A stretch of DNA of 64,000 nt from an uncultured bacterium (GTDB taxonomy: Bacteria > Myxococcota_A > Bradymonadia > Bradymonadales > Bradymonadaceae), in contig CALJNB010000005.1 of NCBI GenBank assembly GCA_937981985.1, positions 1 to 64,000 on the forward strand, in the 5' to 3' direction. The notes below the pieces were generated by a model that made no database searches, had not been told where the DNA came from, and worked only from the letters and a program-made list of their open reading frames with translations. A program made the position numbers and the translations under genes. The first letter of the stretch is position 1; every line of letters begins with the position of its first letter. Of the stretch, positions 1 through 9,194 are shown piece by piece.

Positions 1-3000
1 CCAGCTGCAACACCAACGCAAATTGTTTGGACGGTTTTTATTGCACCGACGACAATGTGTGTTCTGACGATCTTTGCTCAGATACCGTTTGCGATAACGG
101 TATTTGTGAACTCGGAACCGGCTCGTGTATCAACGCTGATACGTGTCGTAAAGAAACTCAGGCGCAAGATTGTTTGGCTGGATTTGGATGTGTTGCGGGT
201 TCTTGTGTAAACGAAGCTGATTTTTGCGAAGAACTCGATTGCCAACGCGGCGTGTGTTCATTCGAAGCGCAAGGTTGCATTGATGCCCCCGATTGCGGTG
301 GAGATGATATTAAATGTTTAAGCGGGAATTATTGTGACGCAAATAATGTCTGCGAAACGAATCGCTGCGATATCCTCAATACCAATTGCCCACGTGGTGT
401 TTGTGACCCAGCTCAGGGTGTTTGCGTTGATGCTGAAGAATGCTCGGGCTCAACCGATTGTGTTGACGGTAACGTTTGTCTGTCTGGAACATGTACTCCA
501 TTAGGTGAAGTTTGCGGCGAAAATGGTTGCAGTGGCAATCAAGAATGTTCTTTCAACGAATCGACTTCAATGGCGGCGTGCGAGGAAAGCGCCGCGGGCT
601 GTCTCGCGGCGCTCGATTGTTCTGGCGACCGTATTTGCGTTGCTGGTGCCTGCGCAGAACCTAGCGCATGTGGCGATGACGCTTTAGAGCCTAATAATGT
701 TACGGGTCAAGAATCAGAGATCGTTGGCGTTCATGAAGAGCTTTCTTTATGTGATGGAGATACTGATCTCTTTATTTTTGATACAACAAAAGACGCGGAT
801 CCTTTCGGAATGTTGAACGCCGTGGTTGAAATTGAGCCCGCAGATGTGGGTTTGGGCGAGGTAAAATTAGAACTCGTTAATCCGCTCGGAAATGTTGTCC
901 AATCTGGAAGTTCTGTCGTGAATGGGATTCAAACAGCAGTGATTGATCTCAGTCATCTCATTGATGTTATTACGCAAGGAAAATACATTGTGCGTGTGAC
1001 TGGCGATGGGATTTCTACCGCAGGCGTTCGTTACGCGCTTCGGACCGATGTTGTGGATCCTAATGTCCTTAACGCATGTGGTTTGGTGACGCCGATAGAT
1101 CCAACTATTCCCACTGCTGGCAACACCGCGATGGGAGGTTCGATTGAACTTAAATCATGCGGAGATAGTCAAGGAATTGCGAAAGAAAATATTTTCTCTC
1201 TCACAGTGGATGTACCTTCTTATGTGACGCTTCGGGCTTTACCCGCGATCGGAGTCGATGTGACTTTGTCGATGAGATCAATTTGCGCTCAGGATGATAC
1301 CGATTTGGGATGTGCAAATTCATCAGGTGAATCTGACCCAGAACAAATTTCGGGCGCGCTTTCTCCGGGCGTCTATTACGTAATCGTCGAAAGTGAACAA
1401 CTCACCGAAGGTGCTTATTCTATCATTACCGAGATCGAGCCGATCATTTGCCAGACCGCCGACAATACTTGCGCGGATGCCAATAACGCAAGCGTTTGTA
1501 ATGCTCGCGGAACGGCTTTTGAAAATGAAGTGTGTGAAAACGGCTGCGATATGGCGATTAATCGATGTACTCGCGATGCTGGCGACGTTTGTGGGACCGC
1601 TATTCCTGTCACCGGATCGTATTCCGGGACGATAGATTGGTCTTCTTTCATAGGTGATTATAATCCCGATGCTGCATGTGTTCCTTTGGATGGTACAGAC
1701 TCCGATGTTGATGGCGAAGATGTGGCTTTCGCCGTTACTATTCCGGATGGTAGCGCACTTGTCGCTTCACTAAGTCGAGCCTCTGGCGTTTATGTTTCCA
1801 TGTATTTCGTAACAGAATGTTTGGACGTGAGTTCATCATGTGTTGTCGGCGCAAATAACGGCCAGTTTTCTAACGAAGAATTATTTTACAAGAACGACAC
1901 CGGTGCAGAAATTTCGGGCTTCCTTATCGCCGATAGAGGAACCGAATCGACAAGTAATACTCCGTCTAATATCGAAATTTCCGTAGCGCCTGTAGTTTGT
2001 ACTCCCGCCGAAAAACGTTGTATTCTTAATCGTGAATCCCAATCTTGTAATGCCGCAGGAACTGCGTTTGATAGTTCTACGACATGTAACTTTGGGTGCG
2101 ATGACGCCACCGGCGAATGTGTGACCGCGCTTAATGATGTTTGCAGTGGCGCCGTCGTACTTTCATCCGGAGTCACTGAGTCCGGAGATATTGGGATACT
2201 TTCACCAAGTTATAATTCCGCGGGTTGTAATTCCCGCACCAATGGTCGTGATGCTTCTTACGTTTTAGAAAACGTTCCAGTTGGGTCTCTCATTGAAGTA
2301 GATATGGTTACTGATTTCGATGCGGTTCTTTGGGCTGCTCGAGAATGTACGATGGATGTATTGAGTGCCTGTACCTCGCGCTCCGATTCCGCTTTCTCTT
2401 CGGGAACCGAATCCTTAAGTTTCATCGCTTCGGACACCGGAGATTACTATTTCGTTGCAGACACTTATTCAGCATCGGGTTCAGTAGGAACCTTTACGAT
2501 AACGGCAACGGTTACCCCCCCACAGTGTAACTCTGGAGACCTCATCGGCTGTTCAGATGCGAATACGCTTCAGTATTGCGATAGTACCGGACAAATCACA
2601 AGCATCTCTTGTATGGGCGGTTGTGCGAGCGATCGATGTAATACACCCTCAGGCGATATTTGTTTGGATGCCAAACCCTTGTTGGCAACGCTTACCAATC
2701 AAAACGTTAGCGGCAGTACCGATGATGGCGGTAGTAATTCTATGACGCCAAACGGAAACTTGGGGAGCTGCAGTTTCACCAGTGCGCTCGACGAAGCCGA
2801 TCGATTCTTCACCGTTGATATCCCCGCTGAACACGCTTTGGAGATTTCATTCGACAGGGGATTTTACCCACAACTTTATATCCTCGATGACTCGTGTGAT
2901 TTGAATTCTTGTAAAGCTCAACTTACCGGTGATGGCGATTTAGATTACTACTCCTTGCTGGGAGAGACCGTAATCATCGTAGTGGATTCTAGTACCCTTG

Positions 3001-5213
3001 CCACTTTTGATCCCACTGATAACGAATGGGACTTCGACTACAAACTTGTTCCTCAACCTGGTCGTATTTGTACAGCAGGCGAGTCGGTCTGTAACGGAAA
3101 CGTTGCAGAAGTTTGCGATGCGTCCCAAACGACGACCACCGGCTTTATCTGTCCAAATGGATGCGCGAATGGTCTTTGTATTGACGACCCAGCGGTTTCC
3201 CAAACATGCGCAACCGCACCAGATGTAACAGGTGGATTCATCGGATCAATTAACGAAGATGATTACACGAATGATGTTGATGGAAGACCCTGTGGGTCAC
3301 GTTCGGCCGGCGCAGACTCCCATTTTCAAGTATCGCTTCAGGCCGGTGAGATCTTACATGCGACCGTGAGTGGCGGTACCTGGTATCCGCAACTTTATTT
3401 CTACACCGATTGCCTTGATCCTGTTGCAAGCTGTCAGGCAGGAAGTCCTTATGCTCGGGAAAGTGAACTATTTTATCAGGCCCCTGTTGCGGAAACCGTA
3501 TTCATCGGAATCGATTTCGAATCGTCATCTGCTAATGCATCACATGAGGCTCAAACCCTTATTGAGATTTTGCAACCGGAGTGTCTGGACGGCGACCCAC
3601 CGATTTGTAACGCGACTGGTGATGCTCTCGCCGTCTGTAATAACGGACGTTTTGAGGACATCGCTTGTGGCGGAAATGGGGTTTGTACCAATAATAAATG
3701 TGAAACACCGACTGGCGATGTTTGCTTCGATGCGATTCAACTCGACGGCGTTCCCGCAGGCGTACTCTCGGTTACGAGTACTTTTAGCGGCGCTACTAAA
3801 GCGTTCCAAGCCGATCAAACGACCCTCGCAGGCGCATGTCGCTTTAACGCAGCCGGAACTCGCGATCGAATTTTTGAAATTTCACTTAATCAAGGTGATA
3901 GCCTAAAAATCGATCACGATGGAAGCGATGATACCTATATTGCGCTGGTCGAAGATTGTACCGATGCCAACACGTGTCTGGCGGCGAATCGACTTGCAAC
4001 TGACGATGTATCCATTGAGTTTGTGGCACCCGCTACCCGAACCTATTTCGTGATCGTCAGAGCCGAGTTCAGCGCAAGCAGTTCGTTTTCTTTTGACTAC
4101 GAAGTAACATCGGCCGCCGGTAAGGTTTGTAATCCCAATACCTTCTATTGTTTGGATGGTTCAACCGTTGCAGCTTGTGATGGAAACGGTCAAATTAGAA
4201 CGCAATATAATTGCCCAGCAGGGTGTTCAAATGGTGCGTGTACCTCGTTACCGTCTTCTTCAACATGCGGTGGCGCACCAAGCATCGTTGGTGGGGGTTA
4301 TTTCTTAGAAAATCTTGGAACAGGAACTAAGGATCTCAATATGTCATCGTCAAGTTGTACTGGCGAATCTTCACCTGGGTCTGACTTTTTCTATGCGATC
4401 GATGTCGATGTAAATGAAACCATTGATCTTCGGGTTCAGGCATTTGATGAAATTGATGACCCGGTTCTTTACCTCTTCACAAGCTGTGCAGATGCGGAAA
4501 CAAGCTGTCTAGCGGCGACCGCTACCGGCGACGCTTCACAAAACCTAACTTTCCAATCTCCGATCGCTCAGACGGTTTACGTTGGATTGGATACGGACTC
4601 ATCGTTTGACAGTTCTTGGCTAGGACTTGAAATCGAAGTGCGTCAACCTGATTGTGTTCCAGGTACGACACCGCAAACGTGTACGGTTGATACTACGAGT
4701 TTTGAGTATTGCGACGATACTGGATTTTTGCAGAGCTACTATTGTGGTGGGCCGGGCATGTGTGATGCCGCTACGAATCGTTGTACTTCGCCACTTGGTA
4801 ACGTTTGTCGTGATCCGTACGAGGCTACGCCTGCAGCTCTTGCAACGCCAAATGTTATCGCGGGCTCAATGAGTGGTGATGATAATTATTCGTTAGTCAC
4901 CGGTAATATTTGTACCGGTTCGCAAACGCCAGGTAGAGATCAGGTCTACGTTGTGGACTTGATTGCCGGTCAAACGCTCACTGCTTCGCTTGTTAGTACC
5001 GATGCGACACCTGAAGATATTGCGATGTATCTGACAACCGATTGTGAAGCGCTTCCTAATAGTTGCGTTGCTGGCGCTGATGCTCAACCGGCAGGTTCGA
5101 CCCCAGAAGCACTTACTTACACCGCCACATCGGCTGAGACTGTTTTCATTATCGTCGATTCATTCTTTGCGAATGCGAACGGGACCTTCGATCTTAGCGT
5201 TGAAGTAAACTAA
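1..5213 (+). CDS. Giant secreted/surface-type Cys-rich multi-module protein (5' end outside window)
   Basis: The frame is open upstream of the listed TTG at 27 (SCNTNANC-LDGFYC...), so the gene is 5'-truncated by the window. N-terminal CxxGxYCx5C repeats; then seven Cys-rich modules alternating with ~100 aa PPC-like beta-sandwich segments (AD..F.V.L..G..L....YPQLYF...C). Confidence 0.85.
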   Translation, partial: SCNTNANCLDGFYCTDDNVCSDDLCSDTVCDNGICELGTGSCINADTCRKETQAQDCLAGFGCVAGSCVNEADFCEELDCQRGVCSFEAQGCIDAPDCGGDDIKCLSGNYCDANNVCETNRCDILNTNCPRGVCDPAQGVCVDAEECSGSTDCVDGNVCLSGTCTPLGEVCGENGCSGNQECSFNESTSMAACEESAAGCLAALDCSGDRICVAGACAEPSACGDDALEPNNVTGQESEIVGVHEELSLCDGDTDLFIFDTTKDADPFGMLNAVVEIEPADVGLGEVKLELVNPLGNVVQSGSSVVNGIQTAVIDLSHLIDVITQGKYIVRVTGDGISTAGVRYALRTDVVDPNVLNACGLVTPIDPTIPTAGNTAMGGSIELKSCGDSQGIAKENIFSLTVDVPSYVTLRALPAIGVDVTLSMRSICAQDDTDLGCANSSGESDPEQISGALSPGVYYVIVESEQLTEGAYSIITEIEPIICQTADNTCADANNASVCNARGTAFENEVCENGCDMAINRCTRDAGDVCGTAIPVTGSYSGTIDWSSFIGDYNPDAACVPLDGTDSDVDGEDVAFAVTIPDGSALVASLSRASGVYVSMYFVTECLDVSSSCVVGANNGQFSNEELFYKNDTGAEISGFLIADRGTESTSNTPSNIEISVAPVVCTPAEKRCILNRESQSCNAAGTAFDSSTTCNFGCDDATGECVTALNDVCSGAVVLSSGVTESGDIGILSPSYNSAGCNSRTNGRDASYVLENVPVGSLIEVDMVTDFDAVLWAARECTMDVLSACTSRSDSAFSSGTESLSFIASDTGDYYFVADTYSASGSVGTFTITATVTPPQCNSGDLIGCSDANTLQYCDSTGQITSISCMGGCASDRCNTPSGDICLDAKPLLATLTNQNVSGSTDDGGSNSMTPNGNLGSCSFTSALDEADRFFTVDIPAEHALEISFDRGFYPQLYILDDSCDLNSCKAQLTGDGDLDYYSLLGETVIIVVDSSTLATFDPTDNEWDFDYKLVPQPGRICTAGESVCNGNVAEVCDASQTTTTGFICPNGCANGLCIDDPAVSQTCATAPDVTGGFIGSINEDDYTNDVDGRPCGSRSAGADSHFQVSLQAGEILHATVSGGTWYPQLYFYTDCLDPVASCQAGSPYARESELFYQAPVAETVFIGIDFESSSANASHEAQTLIEILQPECLDGDPPICNATGDALAVCNNGRFEDIACGGNGVCTNNKCETPTGDVCFDAIQLDGVPAGVLSVTSTFSGATKAFQADQTTLAGACRFNAAGTRDRIFEISLNQGDSLKIDHDGSDDTYIALVEDCTDANTCLAANRLATDDVSIEFVAPATRTYFVIVRAEFSASSSFSFDYEVTSAAGKVCNPNTFYCLDGSTVAACDGNGQIRTQYNCPAGCSNGACTSLPSSSTCGGAPSIVGGGYFLENLGTGTKDLNMSSSSCTGESSPGSDFFYAIDVDVNETIDLRVQAFDEIDDPVLYLFTSCADAETSCLAATATGDASQNLTFQSPIAQTVYVGLDTDSSFDSSWLGLEIEVRQPDCVPGTTPQTCTVDTTSFEYCDDTGFLQSYYCGGPGMCDAATNRCTSPLGNVCRDPYEATPAALATPNVIAGSMSGDDNYSLVTGNICTGSQTPGRDQVYVVDLIAGQTLTASLVSTDATPEDIAMYLTTDCEALPNSCVAGADAQPAGSTPEALTYTATSAETVFIIVDSFFANANGTFDLSVEVN

Positions 5214-5356: not shown

Positions 5357-7102
5357 ATGATTTTTAGGCTTCTACTTCTTAGCTTTGTTTTTTCTTTTTC
5401 TTTTGCTTGCAAATCTAATAAGGCCGCGATGCCAAAAGATCCAACAGCGAGAGCAGCAGTATTCGCCGCTCATTTGCCCGCCGATGCGGAGTCTCTAGTC
5501 GTCATTGCGGAGGTCAAAACATTTCGAGAGAAAGTAAAAACCTTGAAGAAAAATCTCGGCGATTCAGCAATGGTCGATCAGGTTCAGAAGCAATTTCAAA
5601 AAGCATTTGGCATCGATCTTCTTGACGAGAAAAGTTGGGTGGACGCAGGACTCACACCCAACTCCTCGCTCGGTCTCGCCATTTATCGCGATCGCCCAAT
5701 CATCTACATGTATGTCGATAATCGACAAAAGTTCGAACAAACAATTATTCGCCGTATGGAGTCAACCTTTCAATTTAAAGGGGCCGCAAAGACTTCTAAA
5801 GTGGGAGATTATACCGTCAAATATATAAGTGACGATCCTACTAAGCAGATGTCATGGCTTTACAACGAAAAGCTTGTCATGCTCACGATGCCGTCGCTGT
5901 CAACAACTGGGGCGCTTGAGGCTGGTGGCGCATCTTTAGTGCTTACAGATGCCAGAAGTGTGAAGCCCGACGCGTCGTATAAATCACTAAAAATGTTTAC
6001 TAAATTCACCGATCGTTTTGTTAAAAAATATCCGGTTGCCGGAATTGTTCCGGTGGAAAATTATTTGAAAAATCCCGACGTTCAAAAACGAATTGGTGAA
6101 CAACCTAACGGTAAACAAGCCGAAGCAATGATTCGCAAATATGCCAAGCATTTCATTTTCGCCGCTGACATAAAAGCCGAACGACTTTCGGCTGAAGTTT
6201 ACGTGGCGGGTTCAGATCAACTCAACAGCACCGTGCAGATGTTGTCTAAACTCGAGCCTGAAGCTCAATTGCAAAATCTCGTAACCGAAAATACCGGATT
6301 AGGGGTTCGTTTAAGTATCGACCCTATGGCGGCTTTCGGTTTCGCGACAACTGTAATGCCAGAAGGTGAAGTTCGACGATTCAAGCGAAGATTAAAGAGC
6401 TTGGGCGATCAACTTGGTATCGATGTTGAGAAAGATGTCTTAGCCGCGCTAAACGGTCATGTCGGGATCTTCTTCTATGGCATTGCTGGAAATGCGCTTG
6501 AACTCGCAGGCGGTGACCCACAAACAATAGCCAATAAGTTAGGTTTGATGGCTTCGCTTTCATTTAAGGATCAAAAAGGACTCGATAACTTGGTAAATAA
6601 GTTAGTTAAAAAACCCATCGAAGGAGTAACCGGAGACGATGCTATTGCCGATGGCAATACGCCTCTGCCGTGGTCTGTCGACGAGGTAAAATCAGAAAGT
6701 GGTGTCCTGCTGGAAGGGATGCGTTCGGTGAAGCCGCCTTTGCCTTTGCCCGTTCGGATTCTTACTTATAAGGATAGGCTGGTCATCGCCGCCCCCGCTC
6801 TTGGCGAACAAACCGTCTACGATTATCTGACCGGCAAAAGAAGCAAAGATAAAAAGATAGGAGATGTTGAGGGCTTTGATCTTGGAAACGACTTTGCGAC
6901 AACCAAAGCTTTCAACGGCTTGTACGCGAATGTGAAACGTCTCAAGACCAACCCCGGTCAAATTCTCAGCATGATCGGCGCAGGTTTCCTTATCGATAAC
7001 TTCGATGAAATGTCACTGAAAATAGATCCTGATGAAATCGGCCTTAAAGTGTCGTTGACCGCGGATATGAAAAAATCCGAAAAAGCTGCTCCGAGTAAAT
7101 AA
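5357..7102 (+). CDS. Predicted lipoprotein of unknown function (DUF3352-like guess)
   Basis: 581 aa; signal peptide with lipobox-like FSFAC; TAA directly abuts the ABC ATPase ATG. Confidence 0.8.
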   Translation: MIFRLLLLSFVFSFSFACKSNKAAMPKDPTARAAVFAAHLPADAESLVVIAEVKTFREKVKTLKKNLGDSAMVDQVQKQFQKAFGIDLLDEKSWVDAGLTPNSSLGLAIYRDRPIIYMYVDNRQKFEQTIIRRMESTFQFKGAAKTSKVGDYTVKYISDDPTKQMSWLYNEKLVMLTMPSLSTTGALEAGGASLVLTDARSVKPDASYKSLKMFTKFTDRFVKKYPVAGIVPVENYLKNPDVQKRIGEQPNGKQAEAMIRKYAKHFIFAADIKAERLSAEVYVAGSDQLNSTVQMLSKLEPEAQLQNLVTENTGLGVRLSIDPMAAFGFATTVMPEGEVRRFKRRLKSLGDQLGIDVEKDVLAALNGHVGIFFYGIAGNALELAGGDPQTIANKLGLMASLSFKDQKGLDNLVNKLVKKPIEGVTGDDAIADGNTPLPWSVDEVKSESGVLLEGMRSVKPPLPLPVRILTYKDRLVIAAPALGEQTVYDYLTGKRSKDKKIGDVEGFDLGNDFATTKAFNGLYANVKRLKTNPGQILSMIGAGFLIDNFDEMSLKIDPDEIGLKVSLTADMKKSEKAAPSK

Positions 7103-7843
7103 ATGATTGACGTTAAAAACGTCTCAAAGTTTTACGGCGAAGGGGAGGGAAAAACGACGGTCTTAGACAAGGTTTCCCTTTCCATTGACGCCGGAGAATT
7201 TGTCGCGATCATTGGTACCTCAGGATCTGGGAAAACAACGCTATTGAATACCATCGGGACTTTAGATTCTCGTTTTGAAGGTTCGCTCGCGATTGATGGA
7301 AAAGAACTTTCAAATTTGGGCGATCAAGAGGCAGCAAAATTACGTAGCAAACACTTTGGCTTCGTGTTTCAACAATTTAATTTGCTCGACCACTTGAGTG
7401 CGATCGAAAATGTGATTCTCCCAAGATTTTTCGGTGAAGTTGTCCAGAGTCCAGAGAACTTGGGAGCCGAACTTCTAAAAAAAGTAGGTTTAGAGAAAAA
7501 GATTAACGCCCGCCCACCAGAATTATCTGGAGGGCAAAAACAACGTATTGCAATCGCGAGGGCGTTATTTCGTAAGCCCAAGGTTATACTCTGTGATGAA
7601 CCGACAGGGAGTCTAGACCGAAAAACAGGTTTGGAAATTTTGGACCTTTTTACCGAGCTTAACGATAAGGACAATATCACACTCATCATGGTTACTCATG
7701 AGGAACACATCGCAAAACTTGCCAGGAGAATTATTCGAATGGAAGATGGCAAAATCGTCTCTGATGAAGTGAATATTCCCGAGGTTGCAGATCGAGCATT
7801 GAAGTTGGATACGGTAACAAAGCGAGGAGACGAAAATGAGTAA
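7103..7843 (+). CDS. ABC transporter ATP-binding protein, LolD/MacB type
   Basis: Walker A GTSGSGKTT, signature LSGGQKQRIAIARAL, Walker B VILCDEPTGSLD. Confidence 0.95.
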   Translation: MIDVKNVSKFYGEGEGKTTVLDKVSLSIDAGEFVAIIGTSGSGKTTLLNTIGTLDSRFEGSLAIDGKELSNLGDQEAAKLRSKHFGFVFQQFNLLDHLSAIENVILPRFFGEVVQSPENLGAELLKKVGLEKKINARPPELSGGQKQRIAIARALFRKPKVILCDEPTGSLDRKTGLEILDLFTELNDKDNITLIMVTHEEHIAKLARRIIRMEDGKIVSDEVNIPEVADRALKLDTVTKRGDENE

Positions 7844-9194
7844 TCGTATTTTTTCGTTGGTAAGCCAATCTGTTAAAAGGAATAAGCGCGATTTTATTTT
7901 CTCAAGTATCGGGATTATCGTAGGAATCGGCACATTAATATTCTTCACCGCACTCGGTGCTGGCGTGAAAGAAACCGTTCTCGAAAAGATCTTTGTCATT
8001 GGCCAGCTCGAAGTTGTTAAGCCCAGTGTGGGGCTATTTGCGGGAAATCAATTAAGCGATAAAGATGTAAACAGGCTTACAGATATTGACGGGGTTAAAG
8101 GCGTTTTTCCTAAGATGAAGCTAACGTTCCCAACGAGTGCTCGCGGTGGGAAAGCGCTTATTGGAAAAGATATATGGGCCGAACTTATTGCCGACGGCAT
8201 TCCGCCGGAATTGGTCCAGCTTGATGACCCAAATGTTTTCCAAGATTTCGGCGCAATCGACGGCCCCGCTTGTGAAACGGGAAAGGATTGTAAAGATGGG
8301 ACCTATTGCTCGGAAGAAAAGAAGTGCGAGATGCCGATACCCGTCGTCATTTCGCCGACGCTTGTTGAAATTTATAACGGAAGCATTCACACCGCTATGA
8401 GCGGTGCATCGGGCGCGCTTTCAATGTTGCCCAAGCTGGAAAAGAAGAGTCTCATAGGTTTAGAGTTCGAGGGCGTTTTTGGGAAATCCTACCTCGGTCG
8501 ATCCTCTAAAGGAAAAACGGAAACCAAAAGAATGCGTCTGGTAGGTTTTTCAGATCAGGCGATCACGCTCGGTGCGACGATGCCGATAGGTTACGTAAAA
8601 CGACTCAACGCGAAATTTAAGGGACAGAGTGCGTCCGAGGAATATCATTCGATTTTGGTCGAAACTGAATCCAACGAATACGTTGCCGAGGTGTCAAGAA
8701 TTCTAAAAGACGAAATGGGGTATTCGCTTAGCGAAAAATTTGAACAAGCCGAACGAGCTGGCCTCCTGATCTTTTTGATGACCTTGGTATTCAATCTTAT
8801 TAGTCTCATCATCTTAGCGATCGCTGCCGTAAATATCATGCACACCTTCTTGATGTTGGTTCTGGAACGAAAGCGCGAGCTTGCGCTTATGCGCGCTGTA
8901 GGTGCAACGCGTTCTAATATACGGATGCTGGTACTCGGCGAAGCAGTATTGTTGGGACTCATTGGCGGCAGCGTAGGTACCCTATTGGGTTTTATAAGCA
9001 CGCTCGTTGTCGATCTGGTGTTTAAAAATTACGTGGTCGACTTTCCTTTTAAGCCCGACTCCTTATTTGCTTTTGAACCTTGGATGTTTGGTGCGGCGAT
9101 AGGGGTAAGTATCCTCTTCTGTGTTTTGGGGGCTGCGATACCTGCCATCCGCGCAAGTCGTATCGATCCAGCATCGGCCCTTTCTGGGTTTTAA
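7836..9194 (+). CDS. ABC transporter permease, MacB/FtsX type, with Cys-rich periplasmic insert
   Basis: N-terminal TM, large periplasmic segment, three C-terminal TMs with [22 protein letters not shown]; overlaps the ATPase gene by 8 nt. Confidence 0.93.
   Translation: MSNRIFSLVSQSVKRNKRDFIFSSIGIIVGIGTLIFFTALGAGVKETVLEKIFVIGQLEVVKPSVGLFAGNQLSDKDVNRLTDIDGVKGVFPKMKLTFPTSARGGKALIGKDIWAELIADGIPPELVQLDDPNVFQDFGAIDGPACETGKDCKDGTYCSEEKKCEMPIPVVISPTLVEIYNGSIHTAMSGASGALSMLPKLEKKSLIGLEFEGVFGKSYLGRSSKGKTETKRMRLVGFSDQAITLGATMPIGYVKRLNAKFKGQSASEEYHSILVETESNEYVAEVSRILKDEMGYSLSEKFEQAERAGLLIFLMTLVFNLISLIILAIAAVNIMHTFLMLVLERKRELALMRAVGATRSNIRMLVLGEAVLLGLIGGSVGTLLGFISTLVVDLVFKNYVVDFPFKPDSLFAFEPWMFGAAIGVSILFCVLGAAIPAIRASRIDPASALSGF

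Follow-up and report, generated by a model that had tools for sequence, protein, structure and literature searches.

A giant predicted lipoprotein of alternating six-Cys modules and PPC-like β-sandwiches in Bradymonadaceae, a putative disulfide-stiffened contact fibre

A giant protein encoded by an uncultured member of the Bradymonadaceae contains seven tandem units, each composed of a six-Cys module and a four-Cys β-sandwich, which repeat with a period of about 519-567 nt. Together with the lipoprotein signal, the 8-Cys repeats and the two PPC-like domains that precede them, the units may well form a disulfide-stiffened fibre with an N-terminal lipid tether and a conserved distal PPC-like tip, probably serving contact or adhesion at a putative surface location. 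The window, i.e. the whole stretch of 64,000 nucleotides that was analysed, starts at base 1 of contig C5 of this genome (G000), which is a contig end. The open frame at this end contains 112 Cys (6.5%) and just 1.0% Lys. Its parts are:

3..5213, + strand: giant lipoprotein ORF, 1736 aa, open from base 3 to the stop at 5213
24..671, + strand: N-terminal Cys-rich tandem array, the part within the window (Cys spacing, leave-one-out profiles)
24-170, 171-314, 315-458 and 459-617, + strand: 8-Cys repeats of this array
618-671, + strand: partial repeat of this array
681..1070, + strand: first PPC-like β-sandwich, with an EPNN motif (AlphaFold2 model, Foldseek)
1071..1439, + strand: second PPC-like β-sandwich, four Cys, no preceding Cys module (AlphaFold2 model, Foldseek)
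1440..1988, + strand: unit 1, six-Cys module to about 1580, then four-Cys PPC-like sandwich
1989..2516, + strand: unit 2
2517..3053, + strand: unit 3, its sandwich missing (with the unit 4 Cys module) in the same-genus orthologue
3054..3572, + strand: unit 4
3573..4112, + strand: unit 5, its sandwich being the sole Pfam PPC match of the ORF (22.9 bits)
4113..4643, + strand: unit 6, modelled together with the following Cys module
4644..5210, + strand: unit 7, C-terminal (distal), best conserved across genera

An earlier note, made from the letters of this DNA, had listed seven Cys-rich modules. All of them were found, with starts at 1440, 1989, 2517, 3054, 3573, 4113 and 4644, and their regular alternation with sandwiches is confirmed by profiles, by a common ten-Cys scheme and by the lag between cysteines. 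Exactly ten Cys are present in each unit, with the spacing C7-9 C8-10 C10-13 C4-6 C5-7 C8-10 C28-38 C40-47 C5-8 C. The Cys lag signal amounts to 43 pairs, compared to 22-23 ± 3 (maximum 35) after shuffling either the residues or the order of the gaps, 2000 times each. A profile built from any six units recovers the seventh with an E-value of 1.1e-18 to 2.8e-33. The controls of this leave-one-out test were a shuffle, a Cys-fixed shuffle and a reversal, one each per unit, and the best of them, with Cys in place and the other residues shuffled, reached 1.4e-4. Identity of the other units to unit 1 is only 18-31%. The array is therefore old and not the product of a recent duplication, and for the same reason a plain BLAST self-comparison gives the main diagonal alone. 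The period expected of a self-alignment is thus absent as an off-diagonal BLAST match, but it is present in the profiles and in the Cys spacing. The 'YPQLYF' string said to follow the modules is found literally in units 3 and 4, but not in the other units.

All ten Cys columns are kept in 225 of 238 units from the family, and exactly ten Cys occur in 234 of them, the rest having 11 or 12. Of 32 complete proteins, 29 have an even number of Cys after the lipobox, and one of the odd cases is due to a mis-picked lipobox. Ten Cys per unit and even totals would result from five disulfides in each unit, and the even, invariant count supports the disulfide stapling proposed earlier. Co-loss of cysteines is uninformative on pairing, because Cys loss in units is almost absent; in one lineage C7 and C9 were lost together and two other Cys were gained. 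Near-invariant over 238 copies, the ten-Cys unit offers a model for disulfide frames that hold while the sequence drifts.

The fold of the unit was predicted with AlphaFold2 from an alignment of 36 units. The model of unit 6 with the next Cys module is confident (pLDDT 91.7, pTM 0.82) and has a defined Cys-sandwich-Cys arrangement, in agreement with the β-sandwich that had been suggested to follow each module. With Foldseek the unit model matches the PPC domain 5sv5 (TMt 0.70), the ColG collagen-binding domain (about 0.67) and GOLD domains (0.77), and the N-terminal model matches 5sv5 with a TMt of 0.77, at its first PPC-like domain. The two PPC-like domains, which occupy about 681-1439 between the N-terminal array and the seven-unit array, are matched as a pair by the tandem ColG collagen-binding domains 5iku (E 5.7e-11). 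The cysteines of the second are ORF residues 359, 386, 428 and 437. As to the PPC family (PF04151), to which the sandwiches had been likened, the identity holds at the level of the fold (5sv5 and the ColG collagen-binding domain, TMt 0.67-0.77) and a paralogue from the same genome scores 63.8 bits, above the Pfam cut-off, but the ORF itself lies just under the gathering cut-off (22.9 vs 25.9 bits). PDB sequence searches gave no match. The resemblance of the modelled sandwich to the PPC/collagen-binding fold is thus supported. The other families that the earlier note had named for a profile search gave no such support: no Dickkopf or EGF-like family matches the window ORF at E≤1 in Pfam, and among the 36 units, scanned with family profiles at E≤0.1, a single member has one weak EGF_Tme5 match (E 0.056).

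Collagenases bind collagen through their PPC domains (PMC6168687). It could be imagined that the protein is an accessory of extracellular digestion, in which the PPC domains bring secreted hydrolases to collagen or other macromolecular substrates, and the Foldseek match to collagen-binding domains agrees with such a role. The identity to the solved collagen-binding domains is, however, only 11-15%, and Pfam scans of the window ORF and of close homologues detected no catalytic domain, which makes this role improbable.

The 5' part of the gene is cut off by the contig start. The first 97 codons are found on another contig of the same genome (G000:C19:3-293, minus strand), at whose left end the minus strand encodes MKRSLLILMTFCSFFVLTACGDGNDSNLCDEVTC...NPT before the frame leaves the contig. 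The last bases of C19 (...CCAACCAG) and the first bases of the window (CCAGCTGC...) have CCAG in common, the frame is continuous and the register at the junction is that of the same-genus orthologue (...NPTTCNTNSNCLNGFYC). The two contigs, C19 and C5, very probably meet within the gene, with a 4-base overlap at a repeat-rich junction. The full-length protein would then have 1833 residues, of which the window ORF represents residues 98-1833. From the N-terminus it consists of a signal peptide and lipid-bearing Cys, the 8-Cys repeats, the two PPC-like domains and the seven units, and the stop codon directly follows the last strand of the final sandwich.

The N-terminal Cys-rich region noticed earlier is present and is, in addition, a tandem repeat of its own, with 8 Cys per 46-53 residues. 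C19 holds one more full and one half repeat, giving about six repeats of about 48 residues in total. Leave-one-out profiles recover these repeats with E-values of 4e-4 to 5e-10. The Cys-fixed shuffles reach 7e-5 to 4e-2, so that the array is largely a repeat of the Cys pattern. The AlphaFold2 model of the N-terminal third (479 residues) has a pLDDT of 82.3, mostly 75-93 over the array, and a pTM of 0.53; the parts are folded, but their relative placement is uncertain. A single Cys motif, CETGKDCKDGTYCSEEKKC, with the CxxGxYC signature of these repeats, is also found in the extracytoplasmic part of the MacB/FtsX-like permease encoded nearby at 7836-9194 (motif at 8271-8327, + strand).

The N-terminus encoded on C19 is a bacterial lipoprotein signal peptide, which ends in a lipobox Cys (MKRSLLILMTFCSFFVLTAC, followed by GDGN). 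This signal is evidence for an anchoring of the fibre in a membrane. A lipoprotein signal also starts a paralogue of 1543 residues on C19, and one is recognised in 30 of the 33 complete homologous genes examined. Acidic residues follow the lipobox Cys in 13 of 14 family members and in 10 of 19 other lipoproteins, a contrast too weak to establish a signal for export to the surface.

The periplasm provides disulfide formation. The main rival to the surface fibre, which we regard as possible though rather unlikely, is a periplasmic lipoprotein, i.e. a rod confined to the space between the membranes, or lying beneath the outer one, that serves as a structural spacer, contacts the cell wall or senses the envelope. 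The oxidizing machinery would be at hand there, and the protein has only its N-terminal lipoprotein signal, no C-terminal sorting tag being found in the profile scans. The size and distribution of the family would rather point the other way. The 33 complete genes encode proteins of about 960-2986 residues with 2-14 units and often form tandem clusters. The longest of them, with up to 2986 residues and 14 units, would be hard to fit into a periplasm of fixed width, and the numbers of paralogues and units vary widely between genera, which would be more like surface repertoires.

In a protein search 41 of 58 relatives match, and the unit profile matches all 21 genomes of the same family (Bradymonadaceae), with weaker and fewer matches elsewhere in the phylum. 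The family is a large, length-variable set common to the relatives of the predatory Bradymonas. One same-family genome has at least ten tandem paralogues (about 950-1360 aa) in one cluster (G003:C4:185000-243000), most of which are overlain by long antisense open frames. In another member (L053:2892-7523, genome G012) the fibre runs on into HYDIN/BACON-like and repeated PEGA-like β domains, and its end is not a PPC unit.

Taken in order, the window units are the counterparts of units 2-8 of the homologue in G005. The same-genus orthologue, G001, lacks one whole period: in its unit 3 the Cys module matches that of window unit 3 (57% identity), whereas the sandwich matches that of window unit 4 (57%). 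The break thus falls on the module boundary and keeps the register. Since every window position has a unit in G005, a loss in G001 is more likely than a gain in the window gene. The sandwich of unit 7 is 50% and 46% identical to those of G004 and G005, respectively, compared to 24-42% for the other units. Between genomes, last-unit sandwiches are 31.6% identical and middle units 24.3% (random middle sets reach at most 27.0%), the kinship of paralogues being ignored. Likewise, the best match of 22 of 28 last units is another last unit, in a test that ignores the relatedness of paralogues. By sequence comparison, the last unit is a distinct and better conserved lineage.

This lineage bears on the idea of a passive coat or matrix, i.e. 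a surface brush, spacer or biofilm matrix made of equivalent beads with no specific ligand. The middle units are strongly divergent (about 24% identity), with the Cys frame and the core alone kept, and the units lack the EPNN motif of the first PPC-like domain, as might be expected of such beads. However, neither a conserved last-unit lineage nor unit positions that are orthologous across genera would be needed in a purely passive polymer, and we consider this explanation unlikely.

The genes downstream of the fibre gene in the window are:

5357-7102, + strand: lipoprotein-like gene (SFAC followed by KSNK), 581 aa, no Pfam match, the immediate neighbour
7103-9194: ABC transporter

The product of 5357-7102 is an uncharacterised conserved envelope protein, present in 19 of the 20 genomes searched (relatives and own), other families of the class included. 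Upstream, in this genus, a PilX/PilY1-like pair and a small lipoprotein precede the giant lipoprotein gene. This position, which is the same in G001:C452 and, across the ends of C19 and C5, in the present genome, would be in accord with a role as an accessory protein of type IV pili or of a tip adhesin resembling PilY1. In genomes G003-G007, however, the PilY1-like gene is on another contig or, in G005, about 1.5 Mb from the fibre gene, and the PilY1 Pfam match is below its cut-off; such a role is most improbable. Comparison of the relatives' loci showed that the order of the neighbours is not kept outside the genus, and they therefore carry little functional weight. On the same ground, neither PilY1 nor the downstream ABC transporter was accepted as a general operon partner.

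For the surface fibre, the favoured reading, the following assembly is proposed. The protein of about 1833 residues would be exported as a lipoprotein and lipidated at the Cys after ...FFVLTA, and the lipid would anchor the N-terminus in a membrane, most likely the outer one. A rod of roughly 300 residues, made of the 8-Cys repeats, would raise the two PPC-like domains and then the seven units, each a six-Cys clasp with a four-Cys PPC-like sandwich, off the membrane. All cysteines are probably paired in disulfides, so the fibre would be stiff and protease-resistant, and perhaps, by a rough estimate, tens of nanometres long. Its length would change as whole units are gained or lost in register. 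The divergent middle units would mainly space the distal tip, probably the last unit, which may bind to prey, kin, matrix, a glycan or some other partner, and the distal end would be kept by selection. A contact or adhesion role suits both the whole-unit length change and the conserved distal end. We infer disulfide pairing, a location at the outer membrane and the surface, and a binding function; profile scans of the ORF and the units gave no match to a known adhesive domain family.

Bradymonabacteria kill prey only on cell contact, and their discrimination of kin depends on contact as well (PMC7188933, PMC11509652). They also prefer certain prey, and a type VI secretion system is reportedly absent (PMC11509652). 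Long, contact-capable fibres found family-wide are a concrete candidate for this contact step. A more far-reaching and doubtful proposal is that the Bradymonadaceae possess a diversifying repertoire of lipid-anchored, all-disulfide PPC fibres of variable length for prey contact or kin recognition, whole units being gained or lost to adjust the reach of the fibres, with the tip retained. If true, the repertoire would account for contact and recognition, a step so far unexplained in these predators, in which a type VI secretion system is reported to be missing. The modular rod is probably very stable and might also be used as a design scaffold.

Several candidate identities were discarded. The Por_Secre_tail match, which would indicate type IX secretion cargo, scores 19.0 vs 23 bits and covers residues 285-336, not the C-terminus. 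The PEP_CTERM match is below the cut-off and internal. TIGR04201 and MYXO-CTERM gave no match in the ORF and four homologues in NCBIfam scans, and PA14 has no Pfam match in the ORF and none in the whole genome; lacking these three, the protein is not TraA. TIGR04201 does match other ORFs of the genome, at 64883-65176 (+ strand) of C5, just past the window, and at 358663-358725 (- strand).

Three known systems are comparable. Fibrillar adhesins (PMC9210967) have, like this protein, a very long, repetitive, β-rich stalk and are exported and membrane-anchored; the inferred 1833 residues with seven units and the N-terminal array, and homologues of up to 2986 residues, agree with the great length and the repetitive, rod-like stalk described for them. 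Here, however, the anchor is an N-terminal lipid and not a sortase signal or an autotransporter, the repeats are 18-31% identical and alternate between Cys clasp and PPC sandwich, and the tip has no known adhesive domain. The PPC (PF04151) and collagen-binding domains of clostridial collagenases (ColG s3a/s3b, 5sv5) share the jelly-roll-like sandwich (TMt 0.67-0.77), and four conserved Cys are present in the PPC domains of Grimontia/Vibrio-type collagenases, too (PMC6168687). Unlike the collagenases, this protein is a lipoprotein with no peptidase, in which 2 + 7 copies occur, the seven alternating with a six-Cys module; its units no longer have the EPNN motif but have acquired four invariant Cys. 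In TraA of Myxococcus xanthus, the Cys-rich tandem-repeat region has been proposed to be a rigid stalk that presents a β-sandwich domain (PMC3325183). TraA is a surface protein of the Myxococcota and shares the Cys-rich repeat stalk and the β-sandwich, but the polarity is reversed here, the lipid being at the N-terminus. By analogy, the protein would work like a fibrillar adhesin and like the stalk and receptor proposed for TraA. No description of the alternating six-Cys/four-Cys PPC-fold architecture of this family was found in the literature searched.
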